64,000 bases of DNA from Allomyces macrogynus ATCC 38327 (lineage: Eukaryota; Blastocladiomycota; Blastocladiomycetes; Blastocladiales; Blastocladiaceae), in the NCBI GenBank assembly GCA_000151295.1, contig GG745362.1:165553-229552 (forward strand), given 5' to 3'. The notes under the pieces were generated by a model that was given only the letters and a program-made list of their open reading frames with translations, made no database searches and was not told the DNA's origin. Shown here piece after piece: positions 19,115 to 35,585 of this stretch. A program made the position numbers and the translations under genes. Position 1 is the stretch's first letter. Every line of letters starts with the position of its first letter.

Positions 19115-19139
19115 TGTCACGGACTGTCAGTCCGTGACA
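19115..19139. repeat. Terminal 25-nt palindrome, left
   Basis: Perfect palindrome with 12-nt arms around a central T (TGTCACGGACTG and its complement). It forms the extreme left end of the element and is a candidate integrase-binding or telomere-like hairpin site. Confidence 0.85.
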
Positions 19140-19171
19140 CTCGTCCAGCCATACCCCCCACTGCCCACGAC

Positions 19172-19364
19172 ACTGTCGTAGCTACAGTGTCAGCCATACC
19201 AGGGAGTGCCCGCGCCCAGGGGCGACAGCCCCGCCAGCCCCCGCAGGTGGTAGCGTGACCCGGGTCAACTGTCATAGCTACAGTGTCAGCCATGCCAGGA
19301 AGTGCCCGCGCCCCAGGGGCGACAGCCCCGTCAGCCCCCGCAGGTGGTAGCGTGACCCGGGTCA
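19172..19364. repeat. Two 96-97 bp direct repeats with internal palindromes, left TIR
   Basis: Units 19172-19267 and 19268-19364 are about 95% alike. Each starts with an ACTGTC(A/G)TAGCTACAGTGTC block, in which ACTGT and ACAGT arms surround TAGCTA, and ends with GTGACCCGGGTCA. Mirrored in the right TIR at 35336-35528. Confidence 0.85.
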
Positions 19365-19536
19365 GTCCAGGAGTCTCCCGACGACAGTGTCACGACGACA
19401 GTCCTCCATAACCTAATCCGGGAACACGACAGTGACAGCTGTTGGCCACCCCGACCGGCGAGCTGGGGACTTGGAGATTATTCGGTGAAAATAGCAAGGA
19501 AGGGTTTGGGGAAGCAATCATGGGAATGGGTCAGGA

Positions 19537-19692
19537 AGTGGCACGGAAATGGCACAGTGGCACGACTTTTGGAGGTTTTTTAAGAGGGTCTAGGCCCGGG
19601 GGGAAAGAACGCAAGATTCTGGCGTTGCACTCTTTTCCCCCCACTTCTCTGGCGATTTAAAATACCCCCAAAGTCGTGCCACTCGTGCCACT
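19537..19692. repeat. Foldback unit 1 (about 156 bp), left TIR
   Basis: Begins AGTGGCAC and ends GTGCCACT. Inner arms AGTGGCACGACTTT / AAAGTCGTGCCACT and GGGGGGAAA / TTTTCCCCCC can pair into a long hairpin. It is nearly identical to units at 19761 and 20604. Confidence 0.8.
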
Positions 19693-19760
19693 TTCATGTC
19701 ATGTTCAACCATAGCTTCCCCGCCCAGCTGGCGCGTTGAATCACATAAAGATAGCAAGGA

Positions 19761-19916
19761 AGTGGCACGGAAATGGCACGATGGCACGACTTTTAGGGGG
19801 TTTTTAAGAGGGTCTAGGCCCGGGGGGAAAGAACGCAAGATTCTGGCGTTGCACTCTTTTCCCCCCACTTCTCTGGCGATTTAAAATACCCCCAAAGTCG
19901 TGCCACTCGTGCCACT
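19761..19916. repeat. Foldback unit 2 (about 156 bp), left TIR
   Basis: Second copy of the GTGGCAC-bounded unit. It differs from unit 1 at a few positions (for example TTTTAGGGGG instead of TTTTGGAGG). The flanking sequence GTCATGTTCAACCATAG is also duplicated. Confidence 0.8.
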
Positions 19917-20084
19917 TTCATGTCATGTTCAACCATAGTCTCCCCGGCCCAGCTGGGCGCATTGATTCACATAAAGATAACAAGGAAAGGGAGAGGGCAA
20001 CCGCTCAAGGCGCGCATCAACCTCGATGGCTGGCCAGGCACATCAAGGGAGCAGCTGCACAAGAGCGGTTGAGGAAGGGGGGTT

Positions 20085-20136
20085 CTCCTGCCACTTACTC
20101 CTGCCACTTACTCCTGCCACTTACTCCTGCCACTTA
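20085..20136. repeat. 13-bp tandem repeat, four units, left TIR
   Basis: Unit CTCCTGCCACTTA repeated four times without change, then a partial unit. The mirrored copy is at 34564-34615. Confidence 0.9.
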
Positions 20137-20484
20137 CTCCTGGCTCGACCGACAAAAGGGAGGGGCCACAGCAAAACCCAAGGTTGCGACCCTTGAAGCC
20201 TTGCCATGACCCAAACCCACGCCTCGACAACTGCACCAGATGCGCATCCAGCACAGCCACCAAGGACATGGGGCGAGGGAATAATATAATAAGGGGCCAG
20301 TGTACTGTGCACCCAGCCATCTCCTTTTAAGGGGGGACAATCGGTTTTCCTGGAGAGTACTCAGAGAAAGGCCCTTTGGGAGTGGGTGTGGGTGTCCAGA
20401 ATTACACTGGCAAAGGGGCATTCGGGTGCTGGGGGGCTCCCGGGTCTTATAGGCGAGGGAGTTCACGATAATTTTTAGGCAGGG

Positions 20485-20560
20485 GACGCCTAATTTATCA
20501 TGTTTCGTTGCTTTGCCTCGAGTGTGTGTTCAGAGCAGTTTTCACTATAAATTAGGCGTC
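20485..20560. repeat. Inverted 13-bp pair GACGCCTAATTTA with overlapping TATAAATT, left TIR
   Basis: GACGCCTAATTTA at 20485-20497 and its exact complement at 20548-20560 flank a 50-nt loop. A second direct copy of the TTCGTTGCTTTG segment lies just after. The right arm contains CTATAAATT. Possible promoter or replication-related structure; mirrored at 34140-34215. Confidence 0.55.
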
Positions 20561-20603
20561 TGAGTGCTAATTTACACTGTTCGTTGCTTTGGTCAAACAC
20601 TAA

Positions 20604-20760
20604 AGTGGCACGAAAATGGCACAGTGGCACGACTTTTGGAGGTTTTTTAAGAGGGTCCAGGCCCGGGGGGGAAAGAACGCACGATTCTGGCGTTGCACTC
20701 TTTTCCCCCCGCTTCTCTGGCGATTTAAAATACCCCCAAAGTCGTGCCACTCGTGCCACT
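20604..20760. repeat. Foldback unit 3 (about 157 bp), left TIR
   Basis: Third copy of the GTGGCAC-bounded hairpin unit, near the inner end of the TIR and about 80 bp from the replicase stop codon. Confidence 0.8.
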
Positions 20761-20841
20761 TTTCTTTGAACGGTTTGAATGGGGCTGGGTGACCACTGGG
20801 AGGACCAACAACCAATGTATATAATCAAATCAACACGACTA

Positions 20842-23157
20842 TCACTCGTCATCATCTGACAAATCCATGGCAGCAGGCCCTTGGTAAATCCAAAGGACCT
20901 CCCGATGTCCATTCTGCTGGACCCGCTTCTTTGCAAACAGTCGAGCATCACCACCTTGCTGTAGGTCAATGGCATCCCGAAGCATGACCCCAAACGCCGT
21001 CATTGACATGGTGTTGTTGCCAGGGAAACGCTTCTGCACGAACTTTAGGTAAATCTCATAGAGTTCAGCACAAGTCATTTGCTTTTCGACCTCAACAGCA
21101 CGCCCCGTTTCCATGAGATTGCGAGGAAAGCCGCCATACTCGACAAACTCCTGGAATAAGGCTGAAATGGGGTCAGCACTGGCTTCCACAATAGCATCAC
21201 GGTCCTCGTTTCGTGGGAAATCGGCCAAGTCCAGGTCACTGAGGTCGACGTTGCAAATGTACGTGAAAATCTTGTCGGCATTCTTCCGCACATATTCATC
21301 CAGCTGCTTGAAGTACTTGCGGTCACAGCGGCGCTTGTTTGACACGTTGAGAACAAAGACACGGCGCCCAGTCTTGGTCAGTGGCAGGATATTCTTGTTG
21401 TTGGATGCAATCATGAAGTTGTTGATGTTTTTGACTTCATAACGGCGCACACACTTTTCATTGATGATGGTGCGCGAGTCAGTGACCATGTTCTTGAACT
21501 TGTCAAAGGCAGCAAGACGCTCCTTGCCACTTGATGATGGCATTTCGTCAAACAAAACGAGGGACTTGTTCTCCAACTCAGAGTTGAACGTCCCAGACAA
21601 GAACTGAGCAGCGTTGTTAAGCGGGATGCAGAGCTTTGTGCCTAGCAGGTACTGGGAAATAGACTCGAACAAGAACCCCTTGCCAGCGCCTTCAAGGCCA
21701 GTCAAGGCAAGGGCGATGCCATTGGAAGTCCCACTCGTGAATAGCTCTTGCAACCACTTGAGAACGTATTTGAACTCTGTCTCGCGACTGCTGCAGATGA
21801 CTTCAAGGAGATAGTTCAGATATTCTGAAACATCCTCCCTGGGCACTTGGCAATTGAGGTTGGTGGCAGCAAATCCTGGGAAAGCATTGAAATACTCAAT
21901 GAACGTCTTGCTCGAGTAAGCCCCCCACTGTGGCTTGTAAAAGTCGAAAATGCGGCGCTTGACTGCAGGAGCACAACTCATGAATTGGTGACCCATGACC
22001 GTTGAAACGGTGGTTGGAGGCACATTCACACCCCACTCCTCATTCACAGACGGGCGGAAATAGTACCGGCCAACAGCAAGGTCCTTGCGCAGGAACTCGC
22101 CAACGTATTTCTGGAGCACCTTGCGCCACGACTCACGGTCCTCGGGGTCCTTGCAGCGAGAGAGGTGATGGAGGACTCGGTACGACCAATCTGAATCAAA
22201 GTCCTGGTCCTCGTCGATTTTCGCCTTCACAAACGCATCCACATCGTCACAATGCTCAGGAAACTCCTTTTGCTCGAGCTTGCCATCCGACTTGAGCTCC
22301 TTTTCAGCCCATTTGATGTCAAATCCGGTCCGTTCCATCGTGTGTTGGTAGAGCTTTTCAAGGAATTCCCCGTTCATCTGCTCATCCTTGACCACCATGA
22401 TGCCATCAAAGCAAAGAACACTTGGGACAATCCCATGGTCGCGGAAAAGCTCCACAGCCTCCATGAGGACAATGCTCTCGACTGCCTGGAACACATTGGC
22501 CATAACAGAACCCTTGTTGGGAACAGCAGTATACCGCTCCTTTGAGAACTTGACAATGGTCGGGTAGTCGGATGAAATCTGTGGGTACGCTACATCATAC
22601 ATGGTGTGGTGCATCTCCAACAGCTCAGGGTGGAGCTTGTTTGTAGAATGCTCATTGAAGAGAATCTTGAGAAAGTCGTGCTTGTCCTTGAGCTTGTACT
22701 TTGTCAGGGCCTCCTGTCGATTCTCAATGTACAAGTCAATGGCCTTGCACGAGAGGTTGTAGAATGACAAAATGCCCTTGAAAATCGAAGGAGCGGCAGC
22801 CACCATGTCGATATCCTGCAGAACGCCAGCAGCAAGGGCACCCCGGAAGTCCTTTTTCAGGCCTTGAAGTGAGATGCTTGTGGCATAGAGCCGGCCAAAC
22901 CGCTTCTCGTCATTCCGCTTCTTCCCCTTGAACGAGTACACGGTCTCCTTGCCATCACCATATGTTGAATTGAACAGCGTAAAATACGTCTTGAGTTTCT
23001 TCTTGATATCAGCCTGGACACCCGAGTGCTTCTGAATGAGGTCTTTCAGGACGTCCATGTTGATGAACTCCCGAAGAACAACCTGGCGCGAATCGTCCAA
23101 GAGCTTGTCGAGGCGAGCCATGGTTGCCTTGAGAGTAGCTGAAGCTGAGTTCTGCAT
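20842..23157 (-). CDS. TVpol - superfamily 3 helicase replication protein
   Basis: 771 residues. The N-terminal half matches the TVpol (transposon-viral polymerase, family-A-related) domain found in PLVs, virophages and Tlr elements: GRLYATSISLQGL (88-100), LQDIDMVAAAPSI (113-125) with the acidic motif DID, and CFDGIMVV (249-256), the His/Asp-type motif. The C-terminal half is an SF3 (D5-like) helicase: Walker A GLEGAGKG (487-494), Walker B LVLFDE (533-538), motif C NNFMIASNN (579-587) and an arginine-finger region GRRVFVL (597-603). It probably primes or copies and unwinds element DNA. The stop lies only 28 bp from the inner end of the left TIR. The upstream region is shared with the divergent zinc-binding gene. 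Intact. Confidence 0.85.
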   Translation of the reverse strand: MQNSASATLKATMARLDKLLDDSRQVVLREFINMDVLKDLIQKHSGVQADIKKKLKTYFTLFNSTYGDGKETVYSFKGKKRNDEKRFGRLYATSISLQGLKKDFRGALAAGVLQDIDMVAAAPSIFKGILSFYNLSCKAIDLYIENRQEALTKYKLKDKHDFLKILFNEHSTNKLHPELLEMHHTMYDVAYPQISSDYPTIVKFSKERYTAVPNKGSVMANVFQAVESIVLMEAVELFRDHGIVPSVLCFDGIMVVKDEQMNGEFLEKLYQHTMERTGFDIKWAEKELKSDGKLEQKEFPEHCDDVDAFVKAKIDEDQDFDSDWSYRVLHHLSRCKDPEDRESWRKVLQKYVGEFLRKDLAVGRYYFRPSVNEEWGVNVPPTTVSTVMGHQFMSCAPAVKRRIFDFYKPQWGAYSSKTFIEYFNAFPGFAATNLNCQVPREDVSEYLNYLLEVICSSRETEFKYVLKWLQELFTSGTSNGIALALTGLEGAGKGFLFESISQYLLGTKLCIPLNNAAQFLSGTFNSELENKSLVLFDEMPSSSGKERLAAFDKFKNMVTDSRTIINEKCVRRYEVKNINNFMIASNNKNILPLTKTGRRVFVLNVSNKRRCDRKYFKQLDEYVRKNADKIFTYICNVDLSDLDLADFPRNEDRDAIVEASADPISALFQEFVEYGGFPRNLMETGRAVEVEKQMTCAELYEIYLKFVQKRFPGNNTMSMTAFGVMLRDAIDLQQGGDARLFAKKRVQQNGHREVLWIYQGPAAMDLSDDDE

Positions 23158-23290
23158 TGTTCCTTACTTTTGGATGCAGAAAAAAAACGGGGGGAAGAGC
23201 ACAGTATTTATGCGTTTGAACGCATCGATAATATCGCCCTTTTGGGAATTGGTCGTTTTGCAAATTAAGTCTTGCGTTCGACTAATTGGC
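23158..23290. promoter_or_regulatory. Bidirectional early-type promoter region
   Basis: 133 bp between divergent starts of the replicase (-) and zinc-binding gene (+). It contains ATAAATA (minus sense, about 23204-23210), a palindrome ATGCGTT-TG-AACGCAT (23210-23225) and CGATAATATCG directly after. These are plausible TATA and operator elements. Confidence 0.5.
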
Positions 23291-24100
23291 ATGACCAAGA
23301 TGGAGGATATTCACCAAGTAAATGTCCAAGGTTTTCAATACTGGTGTGCTGTTCCTGAAAATCAGAATCCAAAGCTCTCAGTCCAGCGTTTGTACAGACG
23401 AATGTCGATTTTGACAAAGAAACCACTTTCAGAAATTGAAAGTGGTGTCAAGTTGAAAACGTTGCTGACAGGATTCAAACAAGTCGCACAATTCACTGAC
23501 CCAAGGTACAATTGTGATGATGATGAAAGCGAAATTGAGGGAGAAGATGAGGAAGAGGAGGTCCCACCACTCACATGTCTTTGCGGAAAACACATCCATC
23601 GCGTTTGGTTATTGAGCAACGGAGAAACCACGATTGGAATCGGGTCGAAATGCATTGAACGAATTGATGCAGCCATGGCAAACAAGGTTAACATGCAAAT
23701 CAAAAAGGAGAATCGGAAAACGTTCGATTGTGCCCCATGTGGAAAGCGACACCGAAAAGAGGACGGATGTCCACTTGAAAGAAAGCAAACTGTGAAAACA
23801 ACACAACCACCTCTTCCCACCCCGGAAATCCCAAGTACCCCACCACCACCCTACACTGAAGTAGCCCCATTGAAAAAGTGTGTGAAATGTGCAAAACCCA
23901 ATACCACAAAGTACTCGACTTGCATGTCATGTATTCAGCAAGCAAAACGCTGCATGGGAAATGGCTGCACAAAGCTCGTCTTCAACCCCAATCACAAGGT
24001 TTGTTACAACTGCCATCTCAAACAATCAGGCGCAACAAGACAATGTGCGTGCGGGCGATACATCAAAGGTGAATATACGCGATGCTTTGGCTGCAAGTAA
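23291..24100 (+). CDS. Cysteine-rich zinc-binding protein of the PLV
   Basis: About 269 residues from ATG 23291. Upstream in-frame Mets exist (23210) but lie closer to the divergent promoter. A middle motif CLCGKHIH...IGIGSKCIERI (C-x-C-G then G-S-x-C-I) is of a type I recall in many NCLDV and PLV proteins with a predicted zinc site. An acidic run (ESEIEGEDEEEEV) precedes it. The C-terminus has a series of Cys pairs (CVKC, CMSC, CMGNGC, CYNC, CACG, CFGC) expected to bind several zinc ions. Probable nucleic-acid-binding or regulatory protein; the exact role is unknown. Confidence 0.6.
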   Translation: MTKMEDIHQVNVQGFQYWCAVPENQNPKLSVQRLYRRMSILTKKPLSEIESGVKLKTLLTGFKQVAQFTDPRYNCDDDESEIEGEDEEEEVPPLTCLCGKHIHRVWLLSNGETTIGIGSKCIERIDAAMANKVNMQIKKENRKTFDCAPCGKRHRKEDGCPLERKQTVKTTQPPLPTPEIPSTPPPPYTEVAPLKKCVKCAKPNTTKYSTCMSCIQQAKRCMGNGCTKLVFNPNHKVCYNCHLKQSGATRQCACGRYIKGEYTRCFGCK

Positions 24101-24118
24101 ATCGATGATGCGTTTTTC

Positions 24119-24130
24119 TATAAATATTTA
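24119..24130 (+). promoter_or_regulatory. TATA-like box upstream of the tyrosine recombinase
   Basis: TATAAATATTTA about 40 bp before the ATG at 24167 and just after the stop of the zinc-binding gene. Confidence 0.5.
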
Positions 24131-24166
24131 TCTCACCCCCTCAGTAAAGTGACACTCATCAAAACA

Positions 24167-25399
24167 ATGTCGACCCCTACCTGCCAAGAGCTCATCAACC
24201 AGCACTGGGACGCTTTTCTCGAGAAGAAAAAGAACGACACTGCAAAGCTGGATGGATACAATCGCCTCTTCAAGTTCATGACAGACGAAAGCGTCGACGT
24301 TTTCAATGCTGGTGAAACCAAGCAGAAGCTGCAGAAATTGGAATCGCACAAGTTCGGAAATGCCAAGTACATGGCGGTTTGGGTCGGGTATTTGGCTCAG
24401 AATGGGGTCCCTGAGCTCACCGAACACACGCGCGAATATCTTATTTTCAAGGAGACCTTGAATAAGATGAGTGCCGAGAAGAACAAGCAGCAGACACTCC
24501 CCCACACTTTGCCTGAAGTCAAGGAAATTCTCGACAAATTCTCATCCGAGCTGCCAGAGAACAGGAGCCGTTCCAAGATTACGACCATTGCAGCACTCGT
24601 GCATGGATACATGGGCGTCCGAACCGACCCGTGCATGATTGTCAATGCAGAAACGCATGCAACTTTGCCCTTTGTCTCTCGCAATGGGCCTGCCATTGTC
24701 GTTCCAAAACCAACTGGCAAGGTCGCGGATAGCAGCTACAACAACAAGACATACCCCATTCACGCCATTCTTCACCAAGAGCTTTTGAAAATGTGTGCAC
24801 GAGGGCAAGAGCGCGGGCACACGTTCATGTTCCAGATTTCGCCCGACAACACATCAACTGAGCGCCGTAAAAACAGCTTTTCACAAGCAATCAAACGTGG
24901 ATACAAGTACATGGGGCTGGATTTGAATGTCAACAAGGCTCGACACGTGCATGCCAGTCACAATGCAGCAACAGCGACCAGTGCTGATGAGTTTATTCAA
25001 AATTCGCTCAAGATGCACCACGCTCCGACCACAGCGCTCGGGCATTATGTTCACGCAGTCGCATCCAGCAGCAACCAAGTTCCCGAATCGGTTCCCGAAT
25101 TGGTCGATGACGATTCAATGGACGTGTCGCTTGACGTGGAAATTGAGACTGTTCCTGACGAGGTCCAAGTGTCAAACCAGCTATTGCAACTTGCACTGGT
25201 GATGCTCGAGCAAAAGTCCACTTTTGCGTTGACATTCGATGGCCAGAAAGCGACGGTTACCCAGCATACAGGCCCCACTTGTAGTGCTCAGTTGCCGCAA
25301 TTTCTCGACCAAACACGAGGCATTATTTGGACTTGCATTTTGAATCGTATTCCATGCAATGTCATTCACACAAAGGATTGGGTGAGTTTGCAGTTGTAA
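24167..25399 (+). CDS. Tyrosine recombinase/integrase of the PLV
   Basis: 410 residues from ATG 24167 (context AAAACAATG). An earlier in-frame Met at 24149 is possible. The catalytic core is recognisable: box I GYMGVRTD (Arg about 152); box II ARHVHASHNAATAT (Arg-His about 259-260); and KMHHAPTTALGHYV (His about 284-285 and nucleophile Tyr about 294), the usual H-x20-30-Y spacing. The N-terminal 120 residues are helical (core-binding type) and a C-terminal extension of about 110 residues is acidic. Tyrosine recombinases are frequent in PLVs and catalyse site-specific integration or resolution. It sits directly upstream of a second integrase of a different family. Confidence 0.7.
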   Translation: MSTPTCQELINQHWDAFLEKKKNDTAKLDGYNRLFKFMTDESVDVFNAGETKQKLQKLESHKFGNAKYMAVWVGYLAQNGVPELTEHTREYLIFKETLNKMSAEKNKQQTLPHTLPEVKEILDKFSSELPENRSRSKITTIAALVHGYMGVRTDPCMIVNAETHATLPFVSRNGPAIVVPKPTGKVADSSYNNKTYPIHAILHQELLKMCARGQERGHTFMFQISPDNTSTERRKNSFSQAIKRGYKYMGLDLNVNKARHVHASHNAATATSADEFIQNSLKMHHAPTTALGHYVHAVASSSNQVPESVPELVDDDSMDVSLDVEIETVPDEVQVSNQLLQLALVMLEQKSTFALTFDGQKATVTQHTGPTCSAQLPQFLDQTRGIIWTCILNRIPCNVIHTKDWVSLQL

Positions 25400-25425
25400 A
25401 ATTTCTTTGTTGTTATTAATTGAAT

Positions 25426-26541
25426 ATGTACCCAAAAGAGGAGCCTTTGACGCCAGAGCAAAGCCAGTGGCTCAGCGACCTGTACTACAATAAAGGATGG
25501 GTTGGCACAGGAGTGAAACGGTTCTTTGATGCAGTCAGGGATTCATCCCCGCCCGGTCGAATCTACAGGCTTCAGGTGGAAAAGTGGCTCCGTTCTCAAT
25601 CAGTGTACCAGCAGTACATGCGTCCACAGCCAAGAACTGACATTCGGAGCACACACTCAGTAAAACCATTCAAGAACTGGCAAGTCGACCTTCTTGATAT
25701 GCAGAGTCGGTCGTATGCTCGATTCAATTACATTTTGACATGCATAGATATTGCAACCAAGTTTGTCATTTTGAAACCAGTGAAAAAAAAGGAGATGGAG
25801 ACTTTGAGAAAGATTTGGAATGGGATTATGAGGGAAAACCCGTTTATTCAACCAACCACTGTCCAATCTGACAATGGAAGTGAATTCAACAGGCTCTTGC
25901 AAGACCACGCTACAATCACGCATGTTAAAGGCAGGCCCGGCATCCCACAATCACAATCGGTTGTCGAAAGGATGAATGGCACAATTCGCAAAATGCTGAA
26001 TGCGTGGATGAGCGTCGAGGGAAACAAAAACTGGCCACAGCATTTGAAGACAATCCAGGACAATATCAACGCTTCAAAATCAGAAGCTACGAAAAAATCA
26101 CCAAACGAATTTTTGAAAATGTCAGAAAGTGACATTTCAAGCCATTTTGAAAAGGTGAATGCAGAACGTCGAATCCCAAAACAAGACACAGGAGTGCTTT
26201 TCAAAGTTGGTGACCGCGTTCGACTTCGACATGTCTGGAAAACGAGCATTGAGGGAAAAAATAAGCCTGCATGGTCGTCTGAGATTTACACAATTTCACA
26301 AGTTCGAAAGGGAGGAACTGGGACTGTCTCTGCGACCTCGTATAAACTAGATGGAAAAAGTGGTTTTTTCAGTCAATCGTATTTACAGCGCATTGAGACC
26401 GTGGAAGACCCGCCCATTCGTCCACCGTCTGAATCCATTCCTTCTATTCGTTCACCATCTGAACACATTCGTGGTCCTCCACCACTCAGAGAGAAATCAT
26501 CTCGAATTCGACGAGTCCCTGTTCGATTTGGGTTCGAGTGA
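25426..26541 (+). CDS. Retrovirus-like DDE integrase (rve)
   Basis: 371 residues. The integrase core has Asp88 (NWQVDLLDM), Asp149 (VQSDNGSEF) and Glu181 (SVVERMNGTIRKML), with 31 residues between the second and third acids, a little shorter than the retroviral 35. The C-terminal part has an SH3-like or chromo-like DNA-binding segment (FKVGDRVRLRHVW, then AWSSEIYTI) and an Arg/Pro/Ser tail. The N-terminus lacks an obvious HHCC finger. This family inserts Mavericks/Polintons with 5-6 bp duplications, which agrees with the GTTCA duplication and TG...CA ends here, so it is probably the enzyme that placed the element. Gene intact; the start is chosen as the first ATG. Confidence 0.88.
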   Translation: MYPKEEPLTPEQSQWLSDLYYNKGWVGTGVKRFFDAVRDSSPPGRIYRLQVEKWLRSQSVYQQYMRPQPRTDIRSTHSVKPFKNWQVDLLDMQSRSYARFNYILTCIDIATKFVILKPVKKKEMETLRKIWNGIMRENPFIQPTTVQSDNGSEFNRLLQDHATITHVKGRPGIPQSQSVVERMNGTIRKMLNAWMSVEGNKNWPQHLKTIQDNINASKSEATKKSPNEFLKMSESDISSHFEKVNAERRIPKQDTGVLFKVGDRVRLRHVWKTSIEGKNKPAWSSEIYTISQVRKGGTGTVSATSYKLDGKSGFFSQSYLQRIETVEDPPIRPPSESIPSIRSPSEHIRGPPPLREKSSRIRRVPVRFGFE

Positions 26542-26563
26542 ATGGTTTATACAATTGATTCGT

Positions 26564-27289
26564 TCAAAGCTTTTGTAATACAACGGTGCAGCTCACATTC
26601 GACGTGTTTGGAGCCCCACATCCTGACACGCTGAACGAGATGGTCTGTGATGTTGCCATGTAGCCGACCAAAACAAAACGCGATTTCAATGTTGTTGATG
26701 GGATTGTCCCACTGTGCTCCCACACCAAATCCAACGAACCGCGCGATGCACTATCCAAGACCGAAAACACATACGGCGTGCTTGCACCACTTGGAACAAC
26801 ACTCAATGAGACATGGACAGCATACATACCGCCATATGGCACTGTCAGCACACCATAGCTTGGCGAAGTCCACGCACTCCCTGAAATTGCGCTTTGGGTG
26901 AAATCTGTCACGTTGAAGGGACTAGAGTCGTTTGTGGCCTGCTGTGTTGTGGAAATGTTGTATGTCCATGTGCATTTGGTTGATGGGGCGCGAGTAGACA
27001 TTGTCATATACGACCCTCGAATCGACCCATTGACTTGCAACCGTTCACTTCCACTCGGAGCAGCCCCCACGGACAGATTGCCACCGTTGCAAATCTGAAT
27101 GCTGTTTGAATTGACTGTCGCAAGCTCACCATACCCGAGCGACCTATTGAAGGCAAAATTACACAGCTTTGTTCCATTTAAACACGTCAAATCAATATAC
27201 GACACGCCATTTGACCCTGACCCGGAATTGCATCGAAGTTCCAATCCTGCATTTGCACTGCTATAAATATAGCTACCACTTGTTGTCAT
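26564..27289 (-). CDS. Fibre/knob protein, C-terminal part
   Basis: 241 codons, beginning with ATG directly after the TGA of the preceding fibre part and in the same frame. The N-terminal region continues a phage-fibre style (SVGAAPSGSERLQVNGSI). The last 130 residues form a beta-rich domain with ITVPYGGMYAVHVSLSV-type strands (here VLTVPYGGMYAVHV) and a final CTVVLQKL strand, resembling C1q/TNF-like jelly-roll knobs used for host attachment. It converges with the integrase gene across a 22-bp gap. Either a separately translated knob protein or the natural end of one long fibre interrupted by a stop. Confidence 0.6.
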   Translation of the reverse strand: MTTSGSYIYSSANAGLELRCNSGSGSNGVSYIDLTCLNGTKLCNFAFNRSLGYGELATVNSNSIQICNGGNLSVGAAPSGSERLQVNGSIRGSYMTMSTRAPSTKCTWTYNISTTQQATNDSSPFNVTDFTQSAISGSAWTSPSYGVLTVPYGGMYAVHVSLSVVPSGASTPYVFSVLDSASRGSLDLVWEHSGTIPSTTLKSRFVLVGYMATSQTISFSVSGCGAPNTSNVSCTVVLQKL

Positions 27290-28144
27290 TCAGTTTGCGC
27301 CGATTCCGCCAGCAACTACCAGTGAACCCGTTGTTGAGCTTGTTGTAGGGGTGGTGTCCGAAATTCGAACCTGTCCGCCAACATAGACACTTTTCGAAAC
27401 CCCCATTCCGCCTGCCACAGTGAACGCGCCTGTCGCGCTGCTTGTGCTCTCAGTCGTGTTTGTGACGCTTGAGACTGACCCTGCAGCAATCATGCTGTTT
27501 GTGATTGCAACCCCAGTCAACTTTGAAAACGAAATGCCATTTCCAAGTTTCGAATTGGTCACACAATTGTCTGCAATTTTTGATGTTGAAATTGAGCCGT
27601 CAATCAACTTTGTTGTGCCAATCGAACTGTCAAAGAGCTTGCTGCCGTTCAGACTGCTCAGCTTAGTGTCATCAATAGTACCTGTAAGCATCTCGCTCGT
27701 AATTGCAATCCCAGTCAACTTTGAAAATGAAATTCCTGGTGCAATTTTTGAATTGGTCACAACACCATCAGAGAGCTTTGGTGTGGAAATCGAACCGTCA
27801 AAGAGCTTTGAGCCATTCAAAGTTGAAATTTTTGCATCATTCACTGAACTGTCTGCCAGCTTGTCAGTTGTGATACTTGATGGGGAAAGCTTTGAGCCAT
27901 TGAGTGATACGATTCGTGAGTCGTCAACAGCCTTCACCTGAAGCTTATCATCGACGACCTCGAGCGTTGTATTGTCCACATTTGCTGAAACAGTGCTGCC
28001 TGCCACACTCACCCCAGACCCATCACCAACACTGAACACAAGTCCACTTGACACGCTGGCAATGGCGTTGTCCACATACTCCTTTGAGACTACCGTTGTC
28101 CCACTCGTTGAAGTCGTCTCTGGCGTGTTGAAGATATTTTTCAT
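27290..28144 (-). CDS. Fibre/spike protein, N-terminal repetitive part
   Basis: 284 residues ending GGIGAN then TGA. It starts with a short head (VSKEYVDNAIASV, as in bacteriophage tail fibres) and continues with repeats of about 40-45 residues containing ISFSKLTG(I/V)AIT and LNGSKLFDSSI. Each repeat alternates SKI/TKL and DG/DS turns, expected to form a trimeric beta-helical shaft. The end, SSTTGSLVVAGGIGAN, is typical of a fibre linker that normally continues into a knob; the next frame-linked ORF supplies one. It is on the opposite strand to the rest of the capsid module and is divergent from the next gene with only a 30-bp gap. Confidence 0.62.
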   Translation of the reverse strand: MKNIFNTPETTSTSGTTVVSKEYVDNAIASVSSGLVFSVGDGSGVSVAGSTVSANVDNTTLEVVDDKLQVKAVDDSRIVSLNGSKLSPSSITTDKLADSSVNDAKISTLNGSKLFDGSISTPKLSDGVVTNSKIAPGISFSKLTGIAITSEMLTGTIDDTKLSSLNGSKLFDSSIGTTKLIDGSISTSKIADNCVTNSKLGNGISFSKLTGVAITNSMIAAGSVSSVTNTTESTSSATGAFTVAGGMGVSKSVYVGGQVRISDTTPTTSSTTGSLVVAGGIGAN

Positions 28145-28174: not shown

Positions 28175-28411
28175 ATGGACGTGACCACTCCTGACATGAC
28201 CCTTGATGAATGGCGCGAGCATTTGGCGAATGGCAGCATGATACCCTGGTCGTGGTACGATAAGACTGACGAACAAAAAGAGGCCTGGTTGTTGAAGCGC
28301 GAGCGGAAATTCAAAAGATATGCCACGTCAAACCACGAGGAAGAACGTGCTGCAGCTGCACGCCGTCGAATTTACCAGAAATTGAACACCAAACGACGTG
28401 AAGGTACATAA
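28175..28411 (+). CDS. Small basic PLV protein, unknown
   Basis: 78 residues. The first 35 residues contain a TLDEWREHLANGSMIPW-type segment. The rest is a highly charged helix rich in Arg, Lys and Glu (EERAAAARRRIYQKL). Codon use matches the neighbouring viral genes. A DNA- or capsid-binding helper role is possible, but I recognise no family. Confidence 0.5.
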   Translation: MDVTTPDMTLDEWREHLANGSMIPWSWYDKTDEQKEAWLLKRERKFKRYATSNHEEERAAAARRRIYQKLNTKRREGT

Positions 28412-28490: not shown

Positions 28491-28519
28491 TATATTCTCT
28501 GCTATTTCATAAACAACAC

Positions 28520-30232: not shown

Positions 30233-30259
30233 TCTTTTTTGTGAATATACTGTAACAGA

Positions 30260-31063
30260 ATGTCGAATCCATACAAGATTGTGCCCATCGACAATGGCTT
30301 TACACAGAATGCAAGCAACAAGCCGTCAGCCATCCCAAAACACCCTTTCTCTCTATCCCTCGTTGCTCCAAAGGGCAGTGGGAAGAGCACGCTGATTGCA
30401 AATCTGCTCTGTTTCGACCATTTCTTCAAAGGACACTTCGACACTATCTGGGTGTTTAACCCCACTGCTTTGGCTGACGACAAATATTCATATATAATGT
30501 CTCAGCCCATTCTAAAACAAAAAAAACGAGACCCAACCAGCATCGACCCGGAACAACACAATCCAAAACGGTTGTGTATTCCCGCAGGGTGCCTTGTTAC
30601 TGAGCCAGACGACTTTGTGCCCACCTTGCGCAAAATCCGGGATGCAGCAAAGAAACAGTTTGAGGAGGGCGACAAAAAGAACATGCCATCACAACTCATT
30701 GTGCTAGACGATGTGCTGGGCTTGAAAGTGTTGTCTGACAGGACTTTGACGAATTTTCTGTGTAATTCTCGTCATTACAACATCTCAACTCTCATCTCGG
30801 TGCAGCGATGGTGCTCAATCCCAAAAACAATTCGCCTGAATTGCTCATTTGCAATCGTCTTTCCGATATACGACCGCGTGGAAATCAAGACGCTGTACGA
30901 GGAAACTGGCAGTCGGTTTACACTCAGACAGTTTGAGGAAATCATTGACGAGTTGTTTGATGAGCGTAGCACAACAAAACGGCCTTTTTTGTGTGTGAAC
31001 AACCAGAACAGCCCCAAGTACCGTCTCATAGACTCTTTTCAAGAATTCATCGTCAAAGATTAA
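30260..31063 (+). CDS. FtsK/HerA-family genome-packaging ATPase (A32-like)
   Basis: 267 residues. Walker A APKGSGKST (36-44). Walker B QLIVLDDV (145-152). After Walker B comes SRHYNISTLISVQRW (170-184), the sensor-type segment with Gln that is typical of A32-like packaging ATPases of PLVs, virophages and NCLDVs. It pumps the genome into preformed capsids. It lies between the Gln-rich gene and the major capsid gene with a 27-bp gap upstream. Intact. Confidence 0.85.
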   Translation: MSNPYKIVPIDNGFTQNASNKPSAIPKHPFSLSLVAPKGSGKSTLIANLLCFDHFFKGHFDTIWVFNPTALADDKYSYIMSQPILKQKKRDPTSIDPEQHNPKRLCIPAGCLVTEPDDFVPTLRKIRDAAKKQFEEGDKKNMPSQLIVLDDVLGLKVLSDRTLTNFLCNSRHYNISTLISVQRWCSIPKTIRLNCSFAIVFPIYDRVEIKTLYEETGSRFTLRQFEEIIDELFDERSTTKRPFLCVNNQNSPKYRLIDSFQEFIVKD

Positions 31064-31108
31064 CAACACACATTTTTTTTCGAATGATACTGTAAAACCC
31101 CATTTACA

Positions 31109-32326
31109 ATGTCATCCACAGGCGATTTCTCAAAGGTGCTGACGAAGGTGTTGCCGGCTGAGTTGACTTACAATTTGCCGAAACAGAGTATTTACTCGTC
31201 GCGAAACACGGTAGAATTTTCCCCCCAGGCTGGACCGGTGTTTGGACAGAATAACACCATTGTGTGGCATATCGGCCCTCGTGATGACTTTATGGATACG
31301 CATTCCACGTTCCTAGAATTCACCGCACAGACTGTGGACAGCAACGTGTCATTTACAGAAGGGATTCACTGTCTGATTGCAACAATTCGTTTGTACACAA
31401 GCACTGGGATGCTACTTGAAGAACTTCCATACTACAATTTACGTCAACGAGTGGAATCTGACCTGACCGTAACACAGCATATGAAAGACAGTGTACTCGG
31501 GGTGTGCCAGGGCTACTTCCCCACCGGTACAGACCGCTGGGTGCAATCTAGCACGCTGCAGCGTTACTCCATCCCCATTAAGACCTCAATCTTTGCGAAC
31601 CAGAAACACTTGCCTTTGAAATACATGGGCGGACTTCGTCTCGAGGTAACTCTAGCGGCGGCCTCTGACGCGTGTATCACACGGAATGGCGCCACTGCAA
31701 ATTACCAACTCATTGAACCCGTGGTACGCTGTGATTTGATTCATCTGAATGACAAACAGACAAGTGTCTTCGATGACGCCTTCAGACGGCAAGGTTTGAA
31801 ATTATACGGCCATACATACAACCACCATTTCCTACAATACTCTGTTCCAAATGCTAACCTCACTATTAGTGACCGATGTGCCTCAGCCCGTGACGTCCTT
31901 GTGGTATTCCGTGATAATACAGTGTTGAACGACCCAACCAAGGACAGCTTCGTCCGTGCGAAAACCATCGACACCTATCAATTCAGTGTCAACTCGAAAT
32001 TAACGCCCCAGCGGGCGGTTGTCGTGTCTGGAAATGGCACACAAGCCTTCACTGAGCTTCTCAATACCTTTCACGGCCATATTATCGGGGGTGATATCAG
32101 CCCGGCAAAGTGGAAGCATGCAACTGAAGGTTCGTTCGTAATCGGGCGAGACCTCGAATCTAGCCGCACCGTTGTGTCTGGTGACTCGACCATGCGTACT
32201 CAGGCTGTCGACATGCAGCTAATCGTGACGTCCAATGTGGTCCCGAATCAGCGCGTTGACTGTTTCCTTTCCTGCGACGTCATCTATGAATTTCTCCCGA
32301 CGAAAGAAGTGAATATTTACAAGTAA
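31109..32326 (+). CDS. Major capsid protein, double jelly roll
   Basis: 405 residues, placed exactly where PLVs encode the MCP. PLV MCP-like landmarks: an N-terminal beta strand followed by FGQNNTIVWHIGPRDDFMDTHSTFLEF (the GNF.D...S.L.F class of motif); YNLRQRVESDL; YMGGLRLEVTLA in the middle (GG.R.E); and a C-terminal strand pair (DMQLIVTSN, then CDVIYEFLP). The pattern of alternating beta strands suits two fused jelly rolls. It is shorter than Maverick MCPs (often about 600) but within the PLV range as I know it. No obvious cleavage signal. Confidence 0.78.
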   Translation: MSSTGDFSKVLTKVLPAELTYNLPKQSIYSSRNTVEFSPQAGPVFGQNNTIVWHIGPRDDFMDTHSTFLEFTAQTVDSNVSFTEGIHCLIATIRLYTSTGMLLEELPYYNLRQRVESDLTVTQHMKDSVLGVCQGYFPTGTDRWVQSSTLQRYSIPIKTSIFANQKHLPLKYMGGLRLEVTLAAASDACITRNGATANYQLIEPVVRCDLIHLNDKQTSVFDDAFRRQGLKLYGHTYNHHFLQYSVPNANLTISDRCASARDVLVVFRDNTVLNDPTKDSFVRAKTIDTYQFSVNSKLTPQRAVVVSGNGTQAFTELLNTFHGHIIGGDISPAKWKHATEGSFVIGRDLESSRTVVSGDSTMRTQAVDMQLIVTSNVVPNQRVDCFLSCDVIYEFLPTKEVNIYK

Positions 32327-32356
32327 AGTGTTTATTTTCTGTGTATATTGGTAAAC

Positions 32357-32611
32357 ATGATTTTCAGAAACGTTTGGACGAATTTTACAAATTTCCTGGG
32401 AAATGTTGGGCATTTCGTGAACAGGCATATTCCAACAGTGTTGAACGGCGTAAAGTCAGTGTCAAAATTTTTCGAGCTCTCTCACCACCCGGGCGTTGCA
32501 AGCGTGGCCAGCTTGGTGCACAAGGGAGCTGACCTTGCCTCAGACATCCACACATGGTTCAACTCACCAGGCGAAGTTGACGATTCGCCTCCGATTGAGG
32601 ACCTTGATTAG
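32357..32611 (+). CDS. Small amphipathic PLV protein, unknown
   Basis: 84 residues. The first 40 residues make an amphipathic helix (FRNVWTNFTNFLGNVGHFV) followed by VLNGVKSVSKFF. The C-terminus is acidic (EVDDSPPIEDLD). Position between major and minor capsid genes, size and amphipathic N-terminus recall adenovirus pVI-type or other membrane-active minor virion proteins, but this is inference. The ATG at 32357 follows a GGTAAAC motif. Confidence 0.5.
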   Translation: MIFRNVWTNFTNFLGNVGHFVNRHIPTVLNGVKSVSKFFELSHHPGVASVASLVHKGADLASDIHTWFNSPGEVDDSPPIEDLD

Positions 32612-32635
32612 TTTTTTCTCTAAGTTAATGAATAA

Positions 32636-33391
32636 ATGTCGCAAACACCTCATCACTATCGCACACTGACCATTTGCTCTCGAGACTTGGTCAATGGCGT
32701 GTTGCCATTACCTAAAAACATGAGCGTGCGTGGAGTACGTGTAGAGAGTGCCTATCTGTGTAATTCATGGCACAACGTCTCTTCAAAAGCAAACAAGGTT
32801 TCGGTTCGACAGTTGCGTGGCGCCATCGAATTCCCAGGAATTCTGACCTTGCCTGATGGCAATTACGATTCGAGTTCGTTTTGCTCAACTTTGAAAACAC
32901 TTTTGAACAATGCTCCAGCAGGCTACTTGTGGCTTGGGACGTGGGACGTATTCGTGGACCAAAATACCTCGAAAATGGTCATCACGAACGACACACACGA
33001 CTTTAAATTTGACCCAGTTGACAATTCTGTTTATTCACTGATGGGCTTCAATTATCTGTTTGGGTACAACAAGCGTCAAACATCGTCTGGTGTTGTCAAC
33101 CTCTCGCCCACAAACCTGCTTCATGTGTACAGTCAAAATCTTGGGGGTCGTTTGCAAGACAACATCTACAGTCAATATTTGAACAACAACTCTATTTTAT
33201 GTTCAATTCATGTGACGGCGCCATTCGGGAGCTGGTTTGAGCACCGACCTCACATGGGCGACTATTTCCGATTCTCTACAAATAACATGGAATGCGTGCT
33301 GGATTCGATTGATATTAGCATTGTTGATGAGCAGTTGGCTCCGATTGACTTTCTGGGCCAGCCATTCTATGTGACCCTCGCGTTTATTTGA
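32636..33391 (+). CDS. Minor capsid (penton) protein, single jelly roll
   Basis: 251 residues. It starts with a strand-rich segment (HYRTLTICSRDLVNGVLPLP). In the middle it has the DGNYDSSSFCSTLKTLLN helix-turn typical of virophage/PLV penton proteins, then strand repeats to LAPIDFLGQPFYVTLAFI at the very C-terminus. The D/E-G-x-Y pattern and the hydrophobic C-terminal strand agree with PLV minor capsid proteins. It is the standard downstream partner of the MCP. Confidence 0.75.
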   Translation: MSQTPHHYRTLTICSRDLVNGVLPLPKNMSVRGVRVESAYLCNSWHNVSSKANKVSVRQLRGAIEFPGILTLPDGNYDSSSFCSTLKTLLNNAPAGYLWLGTWDVFVDQNTSKMVITNDTHDFKFDPVDNSVYSLMGFNYLFGYNKRQTSSGVVNLSPTNLLHVYSQNLGGRLQDNIYSQYLNNNSILCSIHVTAPFGSWFEHRPHMGDYFRFSTNNMECVLDSIDISIVDEQLAPIDFLGQPFYVTLAFI

Positions 33392-33425
33392 ATAAATAAT
33401 TTTTCTTGGAACATGGTAAACAAAA

Positions 33426-33524
33426 ATGGTCCTCGAGATTATTCTAGTCGTCACGAACGTGCTTGTGTTGGTCGGAAATTTGAGTATCATCGGATACCAG
33501 GCGCATACACAGAAAAATTCATAG
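33426..33524 (+). CDS. Tiny single-pass membrane protein
   Basis: 32 residues: ATG then a strongly hydrophobic helix (about residues 4-24, EIILVVTNVLVLVGNLSIIG) and a short polar tail ending KNS. It begins 34 bp after the penton stop and just after a GGTAAACA motif shared with other virion-gene starts. Function unknown; a tiny membrane protein in a capsid operon may sit in an internal membrane or act in egress. Confidence 0.5.
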   Translation: MVLEIILVVTNVLVLVGNLSIIGYQAHTQKNS

Positions 33525-33577
33525 AATTAGTTTAAACGCAGCAATGTGCTTGGTTCTTTTGTCTCGTCAAAAGAAAA

Positions 33578-33724
33578 ATGGACGCCCACCCACAACCACA
33601 ACCACAACCGCCCAAAGAGAAAAAGCGGTCAAAAAAGACAAGCGACCGTCCAAAACAGTGCAGTCCGACCGCGATTCGCGACAGACTTGGACCGAACGAG
33701 TTCTACACAGTATACTTTGATTAA
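33578..33724 (+). CDS. Small basic Pro/Gln/Lys protein
   Basis: 48 residues. It has an N-terminal PQPQPQPP run, a lysine cluster KEKKRSKK, then PTAIRDRLGPNEFYTVYFD. It is the last ORF before the right TIR. The charge suggests nucleic acid binding. Moderate support: AAAAATG context and viral-like composition. Confidence 0.4.
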   Translation: MDAHPQPQPQPPKEKKRSKKTSDRPKQCSPTAIRDRLGPNEFYTVYFD

Positions 33725-33886
33725 CGTGTGTGTAACACACTGCACGGACACTATTCGTGCAATGTGAATTTCCCGTAAAAAATACACCGAATCCTTTCCA
33801 CGACGGCCATCTCTCCACTCCGCTGCGCTGCGTGGAGCCTCATGGCCACCACAACGACAAATCCCCACGATTCGTTTTTTGCAAGC
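33725..33886. other. Spacer between last PLV gene and right TIR
   Basis: 162 bp with no gene. It includes GTGTGTAACACAC and a GC-rich stretch (CTCCACTCCGCTGCGCTGCGTGGAG hairpin, about 33815-33838) that may act as a terminator-like structure. Confidence 0.4.
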
Positions 33887-33939
33887 GGTTGTTGGTCCTC
33901 CCAGTGGTCACCCAGCCCCATTCAAACCGTTCAAAGAAA

Positions 33940-34096
33940 AGTGGCACGAGTGGCACGACTTTGGGGGTATTTTAAATCGCCAGAGAAGCGGGGGGAAAAG
34001 AGTGCAACGCCAGAATCGTGCGTTCTTTCCCCCCCGGGCCTGGACCCTCTTAAAAAACCTCCAAAAGTCGTGCCACTGTGCCATTTTCGTGCCACT
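33940..34096. repeat. Foldback unit 3', right TIR
   Basis: Mirror of the left unit at 20604-20760. Confidence 0.8.
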
Positions 34097-34139
34097 TTAG
34101 TGTTTGACCAAAGCAACGAACAGTGTAAATTAGCACTCA

Positions 34140-34215
34140 GACGCCTAATTTATAGTGAAAACTGCTCTGAACACACACTCGAGGCAAAGCAACGAAACAT
34201 GATAAATTAGGCGTC
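34140..34215. repeat. Inverted 13-bp pair, right TIR
   Basis: Mirror of the left pair at 20485-20560. Confidence 0.55.
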
Positions 34216-34563
34216 CCCTGCCTAAAAATTATCGTGAACTCCCTCGCCTATAAGACCCGGGAGCCCCCCAGCACCCGAATGCCCCTTTGCCAGTGTAATT
34301 CTGGACACCCACACCCACTCCCAAAGGGCCTTTCTCTGAGTACTCTCCAGGAAAACCGATTGTCCCCCCTTAAAAGGAGATGGCTGGGTGCACAGTACAC
34401 TGGCCCCTTATTATATTATTCCCTCGCCCCATGTCCTTGGTGGCTGTGCTGGATGCGCATCTGGTGCAGTTGTCGAGGCGTGGGTTTGGGTCATGGCAAG
34501 GCTTCAAGGGTCGCAACCTTGGGTTTTGCTGTGGCCCCTCCCTTTTGTCGGTCGAGCCAGGAG

Positions 34564-34615
34564 TAAGTGGCAGGAGTAAGTGGCAGGAGTAAGTGGCAGG
34601 AGTAAGTGGCAGGAG
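34564..34615. repeat. 13-bp tandem repeat, right TIR
   Basis: Mirror of the left repeat. Here it reads TAAGTGGCAGGAG four times. Confidence 0.9.
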
Positions 34616-34783
34616 AACCCCCCTTCCTCAACCGCTCTTGTGCAGCTGCTCCCTTGATGTGCCTGGCCAGCCATCGAGGTTGATGCGCGCCTTGAGCGGT
34701 TGCCCTCTCCCTTTCCTTGTTATCTTTATGTGAATCAATGCGCCCAGCTGGGCCGGGGAGACTATGGTTGAACATGACATGAA

Positions 34784-34939
34784 AGTGGCACGAGTGGCAC
34801 GACTTTGGGGGTATTTTAAATCGCCAGAGAAGTGGGGGGAAAAGAGTGCAACGCCAGAATCTTGCGTTCTTTCCCCCCGGGCCTAGACCCTCTTAAAAAC
34901 CCCCTAAAAGTCGTGCCATCGTGCCATTTCCGTGCCACT
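34784..34939. repeat. Foldback unit 2', right TIR
   Basis: Mirror of the left unit at 19761-19916. Confidence 0.8.
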
Positions 34940-35007
34940 TCCTTGCTATCTTTATGTGATTCAACGCGCCAGCTGGGCGGGGAAGCTATGGTTGAACATG
35001 ACATGAA

Positions 35008-35163
35008 AGTGGCACGAGTGGCACGACTTTGGGGGTATTTTAAATCGCCAGAGAAGTGGGGGGAAAAGAGTGCAACGCCAGAATCTTGCGTTCTTTCCCC
35101 CCGGGCCTAGACCCTCTTAAAAAACCTCCAAAAGTCGTGCCACTGTGCCATTTCCGTGCCACT
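35008..35163. repeat. Foldback unit 1', right TIR
   Basis: Mirror of the left unit at 19537-19692. Confidence 0.8.
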
Positions 35164-35335
35164 TCCTGACCCATTCCCATGATTGCTTCCCCAAACCCTT
35201 CCTTGCTATTTTCACCGAATAATCTCCAAGTCCCCAGCTCGCCGGTCGGGGTGGCCAACAGCTGTCACTGTCGTGTTCCCGGATTAGGTTATGGAGGACT
35301 GTCGTCGTGACACTGTCGTCGGGAGACTCCTGGAC

Positions 35336-35528
35336 TGACCCGGGTCACGCTACCACCTGCGGGGGCTGACGGGGCTGTCGCCCCTGGGGCGCGGGCACTT
35401 CCTGGCATGGCTGACACTGTAGCTATGACAGTTGACCCGGGTCACGCTACCACCTGCGGGGGCTGGCGGGGCTGTCGCCCCTGGGCGCGGGCACTCCCTG
35501 GTATGGCTGACACTGTAGCTACGACAGT
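35336..35528. repeat. Two 96-97 bp direct repeats, right TIR
   Basis: Mirror of 19172-19364. Confidence 0.85.
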
Positions 35529-35560
35529 GTCGTGGGCAGTGGGGGGTATGGCTGGACGAG

Positions 35561-35585
35561 TGTCACGGACTGACAGTCCGTGACA
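35561..35585. repeat. Terminal 25-nt palindrome, right
   Basis: Same palindrome as at the left end, ending the element with CA. Confidence 0.85.

Follow-up and report, generated by a model that had tools for sequence, protein, structure and literature searches.

A recombinant polinton-like virus integrated in the genome of Allomyces macrogynus, with terminal palindromes that suggest hairpin ends

Introduction

Polinton-like viruses (PLVs) are 14-40 kb in length and carry terminal inverted repeats (TIRs), often with a target site duplication (TSD) once they are integrated. According to the available parts of Yutin et al. 2015 (PMC4642659), the rve integrase is missing from all but one of the PLVs described there, and the available part of PMC12220804 names 6 bp as the usual TSD length for rve. 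In the parts available, Bellas and Sommaruga 2021 (PMC7805220) report a PLV integrated in Spizellomyces punctatus, a chytrid, as well as genes of PLVs in Allomyces macrogynus. Zoosporic fungi were therefore already known as hosts of PLVs, a precedent that qualifies the remark in a first-pass annotation of the DNA studied here that an intact PLV in such a genome would be notable. Here, we describe an element in a 64-kb window, by which we mean the whole stretch of 64,000 nucleotides that was analysed from contig GG745362.1 of A. macrogynus ATCC 38327.

Results

Borders of the element

The element spans 16,471 bp of the Allomyces window, from position 19115 to 35585, and both borders are fixed to the base by the following features:

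19110..19114, no strand, left TSD with the sequence GTTCA
19115..20813, plus strand, left TIR of 1,699 nt, identical to the right TIR
33887..35585, minus strand, right TIR of 1,699 nt, identical to the left TIR
35586..35590, no strand, right TSD with the sequence GTTCA

Its 16.5 kb, TIRs and 5-bp TSD agree with the size and end structure of PLVs. The outer termini read TG...CA, which together with the 5-bp TSDs indicates that the integrase acts at the ends of the element. A chance origin of the TIRs is excluded, and since they are identical, the insertion is probably recent. The GC content is 0.488 in the element and about 0.60 in the flanks, and the window is free of N. The 815 bp to the left of the element occur only once in the genome, as does the right flank except for a 70-nt match of 86% identity on C33, and no empty homeologous site was found for either. 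Scans of the window with Rfam (at the gathering threshold) and for tRNAs gave no matches.

The first-pass annotation had placed the ends to the base from the GTTCA duplications, the TG...CA termini and the 1,699-nt TIRs, and these borders were recovered here. Its suggestion of a recent provirus is in line with the 100% identity of the TIRs, and a chimera lacking host-element junctions, which it had named as grounds for refutation, is contradicted by the junctions with TSD.

Gene content

The following genes and ORFs lie between the TIRs:

20842..23157, minus strand, replicase of 771 aa with a C-terminal superfamily 3 helicase (S3H; DUF5906, primase-helicase-like) and N-terminal TVpol-like motifs
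23291..24100, plus strand, Cys-rich, zinc-finger-like ORF common to the siblings, with a putative start codon
24167..25399, plus strand, tyrosine-recombinase-like protein of 410 aa, assigned by motifs
25426..26541, plus strand, DDE (rve) integrase of 371 aa, with a profile match and D, D, E motif stretches
26564..28144, minus strand, fibre protein gene with tail-fibre-like repeats by profile, split by a TGA
28175..28411, plus strand, small ORF of 78 aa
28520..30232, plus strand, structural protein candidate of 570 aa, preceding the ATPase
30260..31063, plus strand, packaging ATPase of the Pox_A32 family (profile 5.6e-12), with Walker A and B stretches
31109..32326, plus strand, major capsid protein (MCP) of 405 aa, a double jelly roll
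32357..32611, plus strand, small ORF of 84 aa
32636..33391, plus strand, minor capsid protein (mCP, penton) candidate of 251 aa, placed only by gene order and by its homologs in other elements

The N-terminus of the replicase carries motifs that are TVpol-like. No protein-primed DNA polymerase (pPolB) was among the matches of the ten larger ORFs that were scanned with profiles, the replicase being of the S3H type, nor was any protease family, such as a Ulp1-type maturation protease. An assignment as a Polinton proper was rejected because of the missing pPolB. In the tyrosine-recombinase-like protein, R152, R259, H285 and Y294, which we assume to be the active-site residues of a tyrosine recombinase, are invariant among eight aligned sequences. 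This protein matched nothing in Pfam or PHROG and no PDB sequence in a meaningful way, and its structure model is poor (pLDDT 52). Homologs are present in the element groups A, B and C, and none was seen in group D. The motif stretches of the rve integrase are presumably the D, D and E of this family.

The MCP was confirmed by its fold to be a double jelly roll. The mCP candidate has no Pfam match; a homologous ORF follows the MCP in groups A, B and C. The first 50 residues of the 84-aa ORF recur in a frame between the MCP and the mCP of the sibling element C65. Homologs of the 570-aa candidate are found as one frame in C56 and as several broken frames in C65 and C58. The fibre frame is broken by an in-frame TGA at 27290-27292 into parts of 284 and 241 aa, and in the siblings C58 and C65 the fibre is a single uninterrupted frame of 627 codons.

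With the rve signature (TG...CA, 5-bp TSD), a double-jelly-roll capsid protein together with a packaging ATPase, and identical TIRs, the element is a PLV. The TIRs, the host junctions with TSD, the replicase, the integrase and the capsid module bear out the previous reading of a complete PLV in a zoosporic fungus. The TVpol-like/S3H replicase was recognised again by profiles and motifs, and the A32-like ATPase by profile, while capsid candidates that do not fold as jelly rolls, which would have spoken against that reading, did not occur for the MCP. Other claims stand in part. The MCP is supported by fold and the mCP by gene order and homology only; of the two proposed integrases, the rve enzyme was recovered by profile and the second is recombinase-like by motifs, with a poor model; and the fibre has the expected repeats by profile, but its frame is not open as had been stated for nearly all ORFs.

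Relatives in the genome and exchange of the replicase gene

The genome contains 19 near-full-length matches to the MCP from several families, each spanning at least 368 of its 405 residues, and 17 of these are free of stop codons. Several copies of the element are decayed, the siblings also have broken frames, and runs of N are present at some of their loci. The order of the capsid block is kept in three groups. Element C66 encodes an MCP with 100% identity to AMAG_06710 of A. macrogynus across 405 aa; this is probably one of the MCPs counted by Bellas and Sommaruga 2021. Protein matches of this kind place the host in Allomyces. Ten relatives of the MCP were found, eight of which are proteins from Blastocladiomycota. 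No relative from a free virus was confirmed in viral_contigs with the MCP, the MCP alignment, the replicase alignment or P0009 as queries.

Three siblings have the capsid block in common with the window copy and an unrelated replicase. The window replicase instead relates to group-B elements: it is 62-72% identical to the replicases of another family, for which the capsid identity is 26-29%, and its junctions map to 20591-20842 and 23232-23567. Sequence comparison shows that the window copy is recombinant, with a replicase from another PLV family, and the element population shows gene-by-gene exchange among PLV families inside one host genome. A group-B end on C31 had been assigned to the adjacent decayed replicase of the sibling type; this was dropped because the end points away from it, which makes a nested insertion likelier.

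Terminal palindromes

Both ends of the element consist of a short palindrome:

19115..19139, plus strand, left terminal palindrome with 12-bp arms and a 1-nt centre (predicted DNA hairpin of -11.7 kcal/mol)
35561..35585, minus strand, right terminal palindrome

No other perfect palindrome with arms of at least 12 bp and a loop of 0-3 occurs in the 64-kb window, and the same criterion gave 1 in total in 20 Markov-resampled windows. Across the elements, the TIR termini form a palindrome of 25-27 nt, the sequence of which varies by element with covarying arms. The loop occurs in both orientations and is opposite at the two ends of one element in three of the seven scorable cases; the two ends in the window are identical, with no flip-flop between them. 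The mean arm identity is 0.50 in the one group-A pair and 0.74 in 36 group-B pairs, and the identity of the adjacent 30-nt interior is 0.87 in both. Thus, the arms drift more than the neighbouring 30 nt, with their complementarity kept.

In the search pattern for group B, the outer TG/CA and the central ACCT/RGGT were kept constant, which left only six arm positions to be tested. When the permutation test was restricted to the nine ends of group B in the first set, the observed value was reached in 2 of 20,000 permutations, a count that does not represent independent events because the elements share ancestry. The ends of C60, C55 and C42 in this set were placed by position, without a matched TIR pair. 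Several group-B palindromes are decayed, with matches at three of the six free positions in C22 and C64. The window and C58 have the same palindrome but different interior sequence beside it. In four elements, the integrase and the tyrosine-recombinase-like gene segregate together with the type of palindrome, and the replicase does not.

Discussion

We consider it most plausible, with a probability of roughly 0.7, that the element is a recombinant endogenous PLV of Allomyces with ends that form flip-flop hairpins at replication. Covarying arms and inverted loops are the expected trace of flip-flop hairpin telomeres, and the variation of the ends among related copies suggests that they were copied as folded-back hairpins and that replication genes were traded. 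We infer these hairpins from the integrated ends alone. It is improbable that the palindromes serve only as a symmetric binding or cleavage site for the integrase (or a dimeric host factor), with no replicative hairpin. The palindrome type does track the integrase type, and the TG...CA termini and 5-bp TSDs place the action of the integrase at the ends, but such a site should conserve its sequence, whereas the arms drift as complementary pairs, and the loops occur inverted.

An ordinary DNA transposon relic that makes no virions now, its capsid genes being left over, has a similarly low probability. The multiple copies in one genome, several of them decayed, the interrupted fibre frame in the window, the broken frames in the siblings and the lack of a free-virus relative in viral_contigs are in its favour, but 17 of 19 MCP matches have no stop, the capsid block has kept its order in three groups and the TIRs are identical. 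A dormant virophage-like satellite that depends on a giant virus is somewhat less doubtful, yet still unlikely. In the available part of PMC5294986, a D5 helicase of A. macrogynus was once taken as a trace of NCLDV, but this helicase may itself be one of the PLV replicases described here. A search for the giant-virus capsid family PF04451 gave no match, and since its controls gave none either, it carries no weight here. Finally, the many related elements, some at loci with runs of N, could have produced the mosaic as an assembly chimera of resident copies. This is very improbable: the window has no N, its TSD and TIRs are intact, and no other copy found in the genome exceeds 72% identity to its replicase, which was therefore not taken from them by misassembly.

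For a recombinant PLV with hairpin ends, we propose that the genome would be linear outside the chromosome and that each end would fold into a short hairpin, which would be copied from one arm to the other and inverted (flip-flop) during replication. A polymerase-helicase replicase, with no protein-primed polymerase detected, could in this way complete the 5' termini, and the integrase would then insert the extended palindrome. More speculatively, the tyrosine-recombinase-like protein may resolve or close the palindromes rather than integrate the genome. That viruses of this kind in general are linear, with flip-flop hairpin telomeres resolved by their own tyrosine-recombinase-like enzyme and opened hairpins inserted by rve, is a tentative idea that we would not yet favour.

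If true, a solution for the ends like that of poxviruses would substitute for protein priming, and the replicase gene would be freely swappable between co-resident families. This bears on two questions, namely how linear ends are finished in PLVs that lack a protein-primed polymerase, and why an rve integrase and a tyrosine recombinase occur together in some of them. Covarying and inverted end palindromes in one fungal genome offer a direct and cheap test of end replication.

Comparison with known systems

The element resembles the integrated PLVs of early-diverging fungi in PMC7805220, the examined parts of which contain no complete Allomyces element with TIR and TSD, no module swap and no terminal palindromes. 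As far as the available parts of PMC4642659 show, it shares the core of MCP, putative mCP and ATPase with the PLVs of Yutin et al. 2015, and the kind of replicase, by motifs and the S3H domain, with the TVpol-S3H PLVs PgVV, PLV-YSL1 and PLV-RED1. Unlike all but one of the PLVs of that paper, it has an rve integrase, which is accompanied by a tyrosine-recombinase-like gene, and its replicase is different from that of its closest siblings. The rve integrase, the double-jelly-roll (DJR) capsid, the A32-type ATPase and the TIRs are also found in Polintons/Mavericks; however, neither pPolB nor a protease was detected in the ten ORFs scanned, and the TSD is 5 bp rather than the 6 bp typical for rve (PMC12220804, available part).

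Long TIRs, foldable end palindromes and two orientations are shared with the vaccinia-type hairpin telomeres and with the chlorovirus PBCV-1 (PMC12085832, in the part available), although the virus in the window is much smaller, has another kind of replicase and is known here from its integrated form alone. According to the accessible part of PMC13236599, the Ectocarpus phaeovirus is likewise an integrating eukaryotic DNA virus with a palindromic site and an enzyme of the tyrosine recombinase family. It has a telomere resolvase, its telRL-like palindrome is internal and the tyrosine recombinase is implicated in integration, whereas the Allomyces element has palindromes at both ends and rve-type integration, and the enzymes are likened by family only. 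In the open-licence literature, including the available parts of PMC12220804, PMC8547959, PMC10120064 and PMC12721341, we found no account of variable palindromes at the ends of PLVs. Compared with these systems, what looks new is the recombinant copy within a multi-family PLV population of this genome, the covarying terminal palindromes with loops in both orientations, and the association of the palindrome type with the integrase and the tyrosine-recombinase-like gene rather than with the replicase.

The integrated element and its host

The Polinton-like virus (PLV) occupies positions 19115-35585 (16,471 bp) with GTTCA at both flanks, and its terminal inverted repeats (TIRs; 19115-20813 and 33887-35585) are 1,699 nt long and 100% alike, as proposed in the first-pass annotation. 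The genes listed there were also recovered: a replicase, an rve (DDE) integrase, a second, recombinase-like gene, a fibre, an ATPase, the major capsid protein (MCP) and a minor capsid protein (mCP) candidate. Of the unique part, 90% is occupied by ten genes, and the GC content of the element is 0.488 vs ~0.60 outside. Almost every ORF had been read as open; the fibre frame is broken by an in-frame TGA but is uninterrupted at the same place in the sibling elements C58 and C65 (named, like the others, after their contigs). The TIRs contain tandem internal repeats (19215-19364 and 20085-20142, plus mirror copies). The element is a PLV that is both complete and recombinant, integrated in a fungal genome. 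An intact PLV in such a genome had been called notable; the presence of PLVs in fungi was already known, and the available text of PMC7805220 reports PLVs or PLV genes for the chytrid Spizellomyces punctatus and for A. macrogynus.

Queried with the MCP alignment, a set of 5.8 billion proteins returned 10 hits, including one from A. macrogynus and seven from Blastocladiella emersonii. The MCP of the C66 element matches AMAG_06710 of A. macrogynus ATCC 38327 with 100% identity over 405 aa. The tim54 gene in the window shares 94% identity with its Allomyces arbusculus counterpart, 40% with the Blastocladiella one and 34% with the Sorochytrium one. These comparisons place the host in Allomyces, with A. 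macrogynus as the most probable species. A recurring family of similar long ORFs at 42178-63168 (e.g., 43892-45142, 50442-51887 and 57271-58071) looks like host membrane-protein paralogs.

The PLV population of the genome

A search of the genome (54.0 Mb, 75 contigs, the window being part of contig C41) with the window MCP identified 30 matching places, 19 of which cover at least 368 of the 405 residues; 17 of these 19 are stop-free. The elements were sorted into four families.

PLV families in the genome
Family A: window, C65, C58, C56
Family B: C60, C42, C57, C74, C61 and others
Family C: C73
Family D: C55:983491, C66

MCP identity to the window copy is 96, 92 and 72% inside group A and 21-29% outside it (alignment A1), and the gene order ATPase, MCP, mCP is kept in groups A, B and C. 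About 15 kb past the right end of the window, C41:244751-256263 contains a group-B-type replicase (62%, one TGA) ~8 kb from an MCP that is 27% identical to the window's, and is probably a second PLV on this contig. At C31:402443-404185, a decayed sibling-type replicase and a group-A-like TIR abut a group-B element end of opposite facing, which would fit the insertion of one PLV into another.

Mosaic genes and replicase exchange

The partition among the four A elements differs from gene to gene. For the ATPase, the window, C58 and C56 group together (93-94%) vs C65 (82-83%), while for the MCP, the window, C58 and C65 group together (89-93%) vs C56 (66-68%). For the recombinase-like gene and the integrase, the window pairs with C58 (94-95%) and C65 with C56 (97-100%; only 207 nt covered for the C56 recombinase-like gene). 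Identity between the two pairs is 67% for the integrase, and the recombinase-like proteins of C65 and C56 have 44-45% amino-acid identity to the window's. Earlier work had already suggested that PLVs and virophages exchange modules (PMC11071308, available text).

The replicases of C65, C58 and C56 share 96-97% DNA identity with one another and have no DNA similarity to the window replicase at E 1e-5. In a Pfam scan of C58 and C65, the C58 replicase matched Herpes_ori_bp (1.4e-9), and the C65 replicase, which has one internal stop, had no match above the cut-off. The window replicase shares 71-72% identity with its counterparts in C57, C74 and C72, and 62-63% with those in C48 and C58b, a second, group-B element. 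Because the latter two are ~60% identical to the former three, the window replicase falls within the diversity of group B. In C48, C58b, C61, C72 and C74, the two element ends flank both a window-type replicase and an MCP that has 26-29% identity to that of the window; in C57 they are paired by proximity only.

The window DNA is similar to group B from 20842 to 23232-23250, and with C58b and C48 this stretch extends to 23371. On the left, similarity to the siblings ends at 20591; on the right, it restarts at 23253 (67-69%) and 23567 (82-90%); group B is likewise 67-70% similar to the window in parts of 23573-24116. These limits place the breakpoints inside 20591-20842 and 23232-23567, and the swapped segment is roughly one gene in size. 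The opposite mixture is found at C55:33484-47604: flanked by group-B ends on either side are an MCP fragment with 28% identity to the window MCP and a decayed, sibling-type replicase (67-70% identical to the C58 one over the two longest pieces). At C60:641189-644943, a decayed sibling-type replicase lies immediately inside a group-B end, a possible second case of replicase exchange. A D5 primase-helicase of A. macrogynus, once taken as NCLDV-derived (PMC5294986, available text), may, we infer, be one of these replicases.

Covarying palindromes at the element ends

Both TIRs of the window copy terminate in TGTCACGGACTG-T-CAGTCCGTGACA, and the two element ends are the only perfect palindromes in the 64-kb window whose arms reach 12 bp or more (loop 0-3). 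C58 has the same palindrome with a different adjoining interior, and C65 and C56 terminate in another 25-nt palindrome (TGTCGTATACCG...), though the adjacent interior resembles the window's. Further palindromes are present at C73, C60, C55, C42 and group-B ends, those of C60, C55 and C42 being assigned by position only. Among 13 distinct palindromes, the two arms of one palindrome agree at 11.46 of 12 positions, compared with 8.15 for arms taken from different elements; the observed value was attained in 0 of 20,000 permutations (2 of 20,000 for nine group-B ends alone). Patterns anchored in the conserved interior identified 25 group-B and seven group-A ends, and the reversed patterns had no match in the same search. 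The arms of the 25 group-B ends match on average at 5.2 of six free positions (perfectly in 12), and 19 of the 20 mismatches are transitions, the pattern expected from decay after insertion. For the 16 distinct group-B arm pairs, the mean is 4.81 vs 3.54 when shuffled (maximum 4.75 in 100,000). Related elements enter all these counts as separate cases, which overstates their independence. Folded as single-stranded DNA, the eight ends tested have energies of -9.7 to -16.3 kcal/mol (z-scores -4.8 to -8.0).

The unpaired centres of the group-B ends occur in both orientations: TG in 11 and CA in six, TTG in two and CAA in one, with CG, CG, TA, TGA and TAA in the other five. Group-A centres likewise occur as T and as A, and as G and as C. 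Both ends could be scored in seven elements, with opposite orientations in C48, C58b and C65 and the same orientation in C61, C72, C74 and the window; C55:33484-47604, where loop lengths differ between ends, and C73, where the centre is self-complementary, were left unscored. A hairpin end copied off one strand would yield jointly changing arms and inverting centres, and a simple protein-binding site would not. As far as the literature was searched, no description of such covarying flip-flop termini was found for PLVs.

Enzymes that may act at the ends

The 5-bp target-site duplications at the window, C65 and C73 are consistent with the rve integrase. In the recombinase-like homologs of groups A, B and C, an Arg, Arg, His and Tyr are invariant, in the order typical of tyrosine recombinases. 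Since profile searches gave no match for this protein and its structure model is poor, its assignment as a tyrosine recombinase is tentative, and so is a role as resolvase. In C73 (L020:2739-4179), the gene lies in two overlapping frames of 296 and 261 codons, which would reflect either an intron or a frameshift. In the four group-A elements, the palindrome type follows the recombinase-like gene and the integrase, which are adjacent and whose contributions are inseparable here. The replicase is positioned between the left end and these two genes, yet the palindrome type is not linked to it.

According to the available text of a cryptophyte study, the TSD-like sequences of some tyrosine-recombinase PLVs have partial sequence symmetry (PMC12220804). 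For the phaeoviruses of Ectocarpus, the available text of PMC13236599 ties linear, closed genomes to a telomere resolvase and a palindrome of the telRL-like kind.
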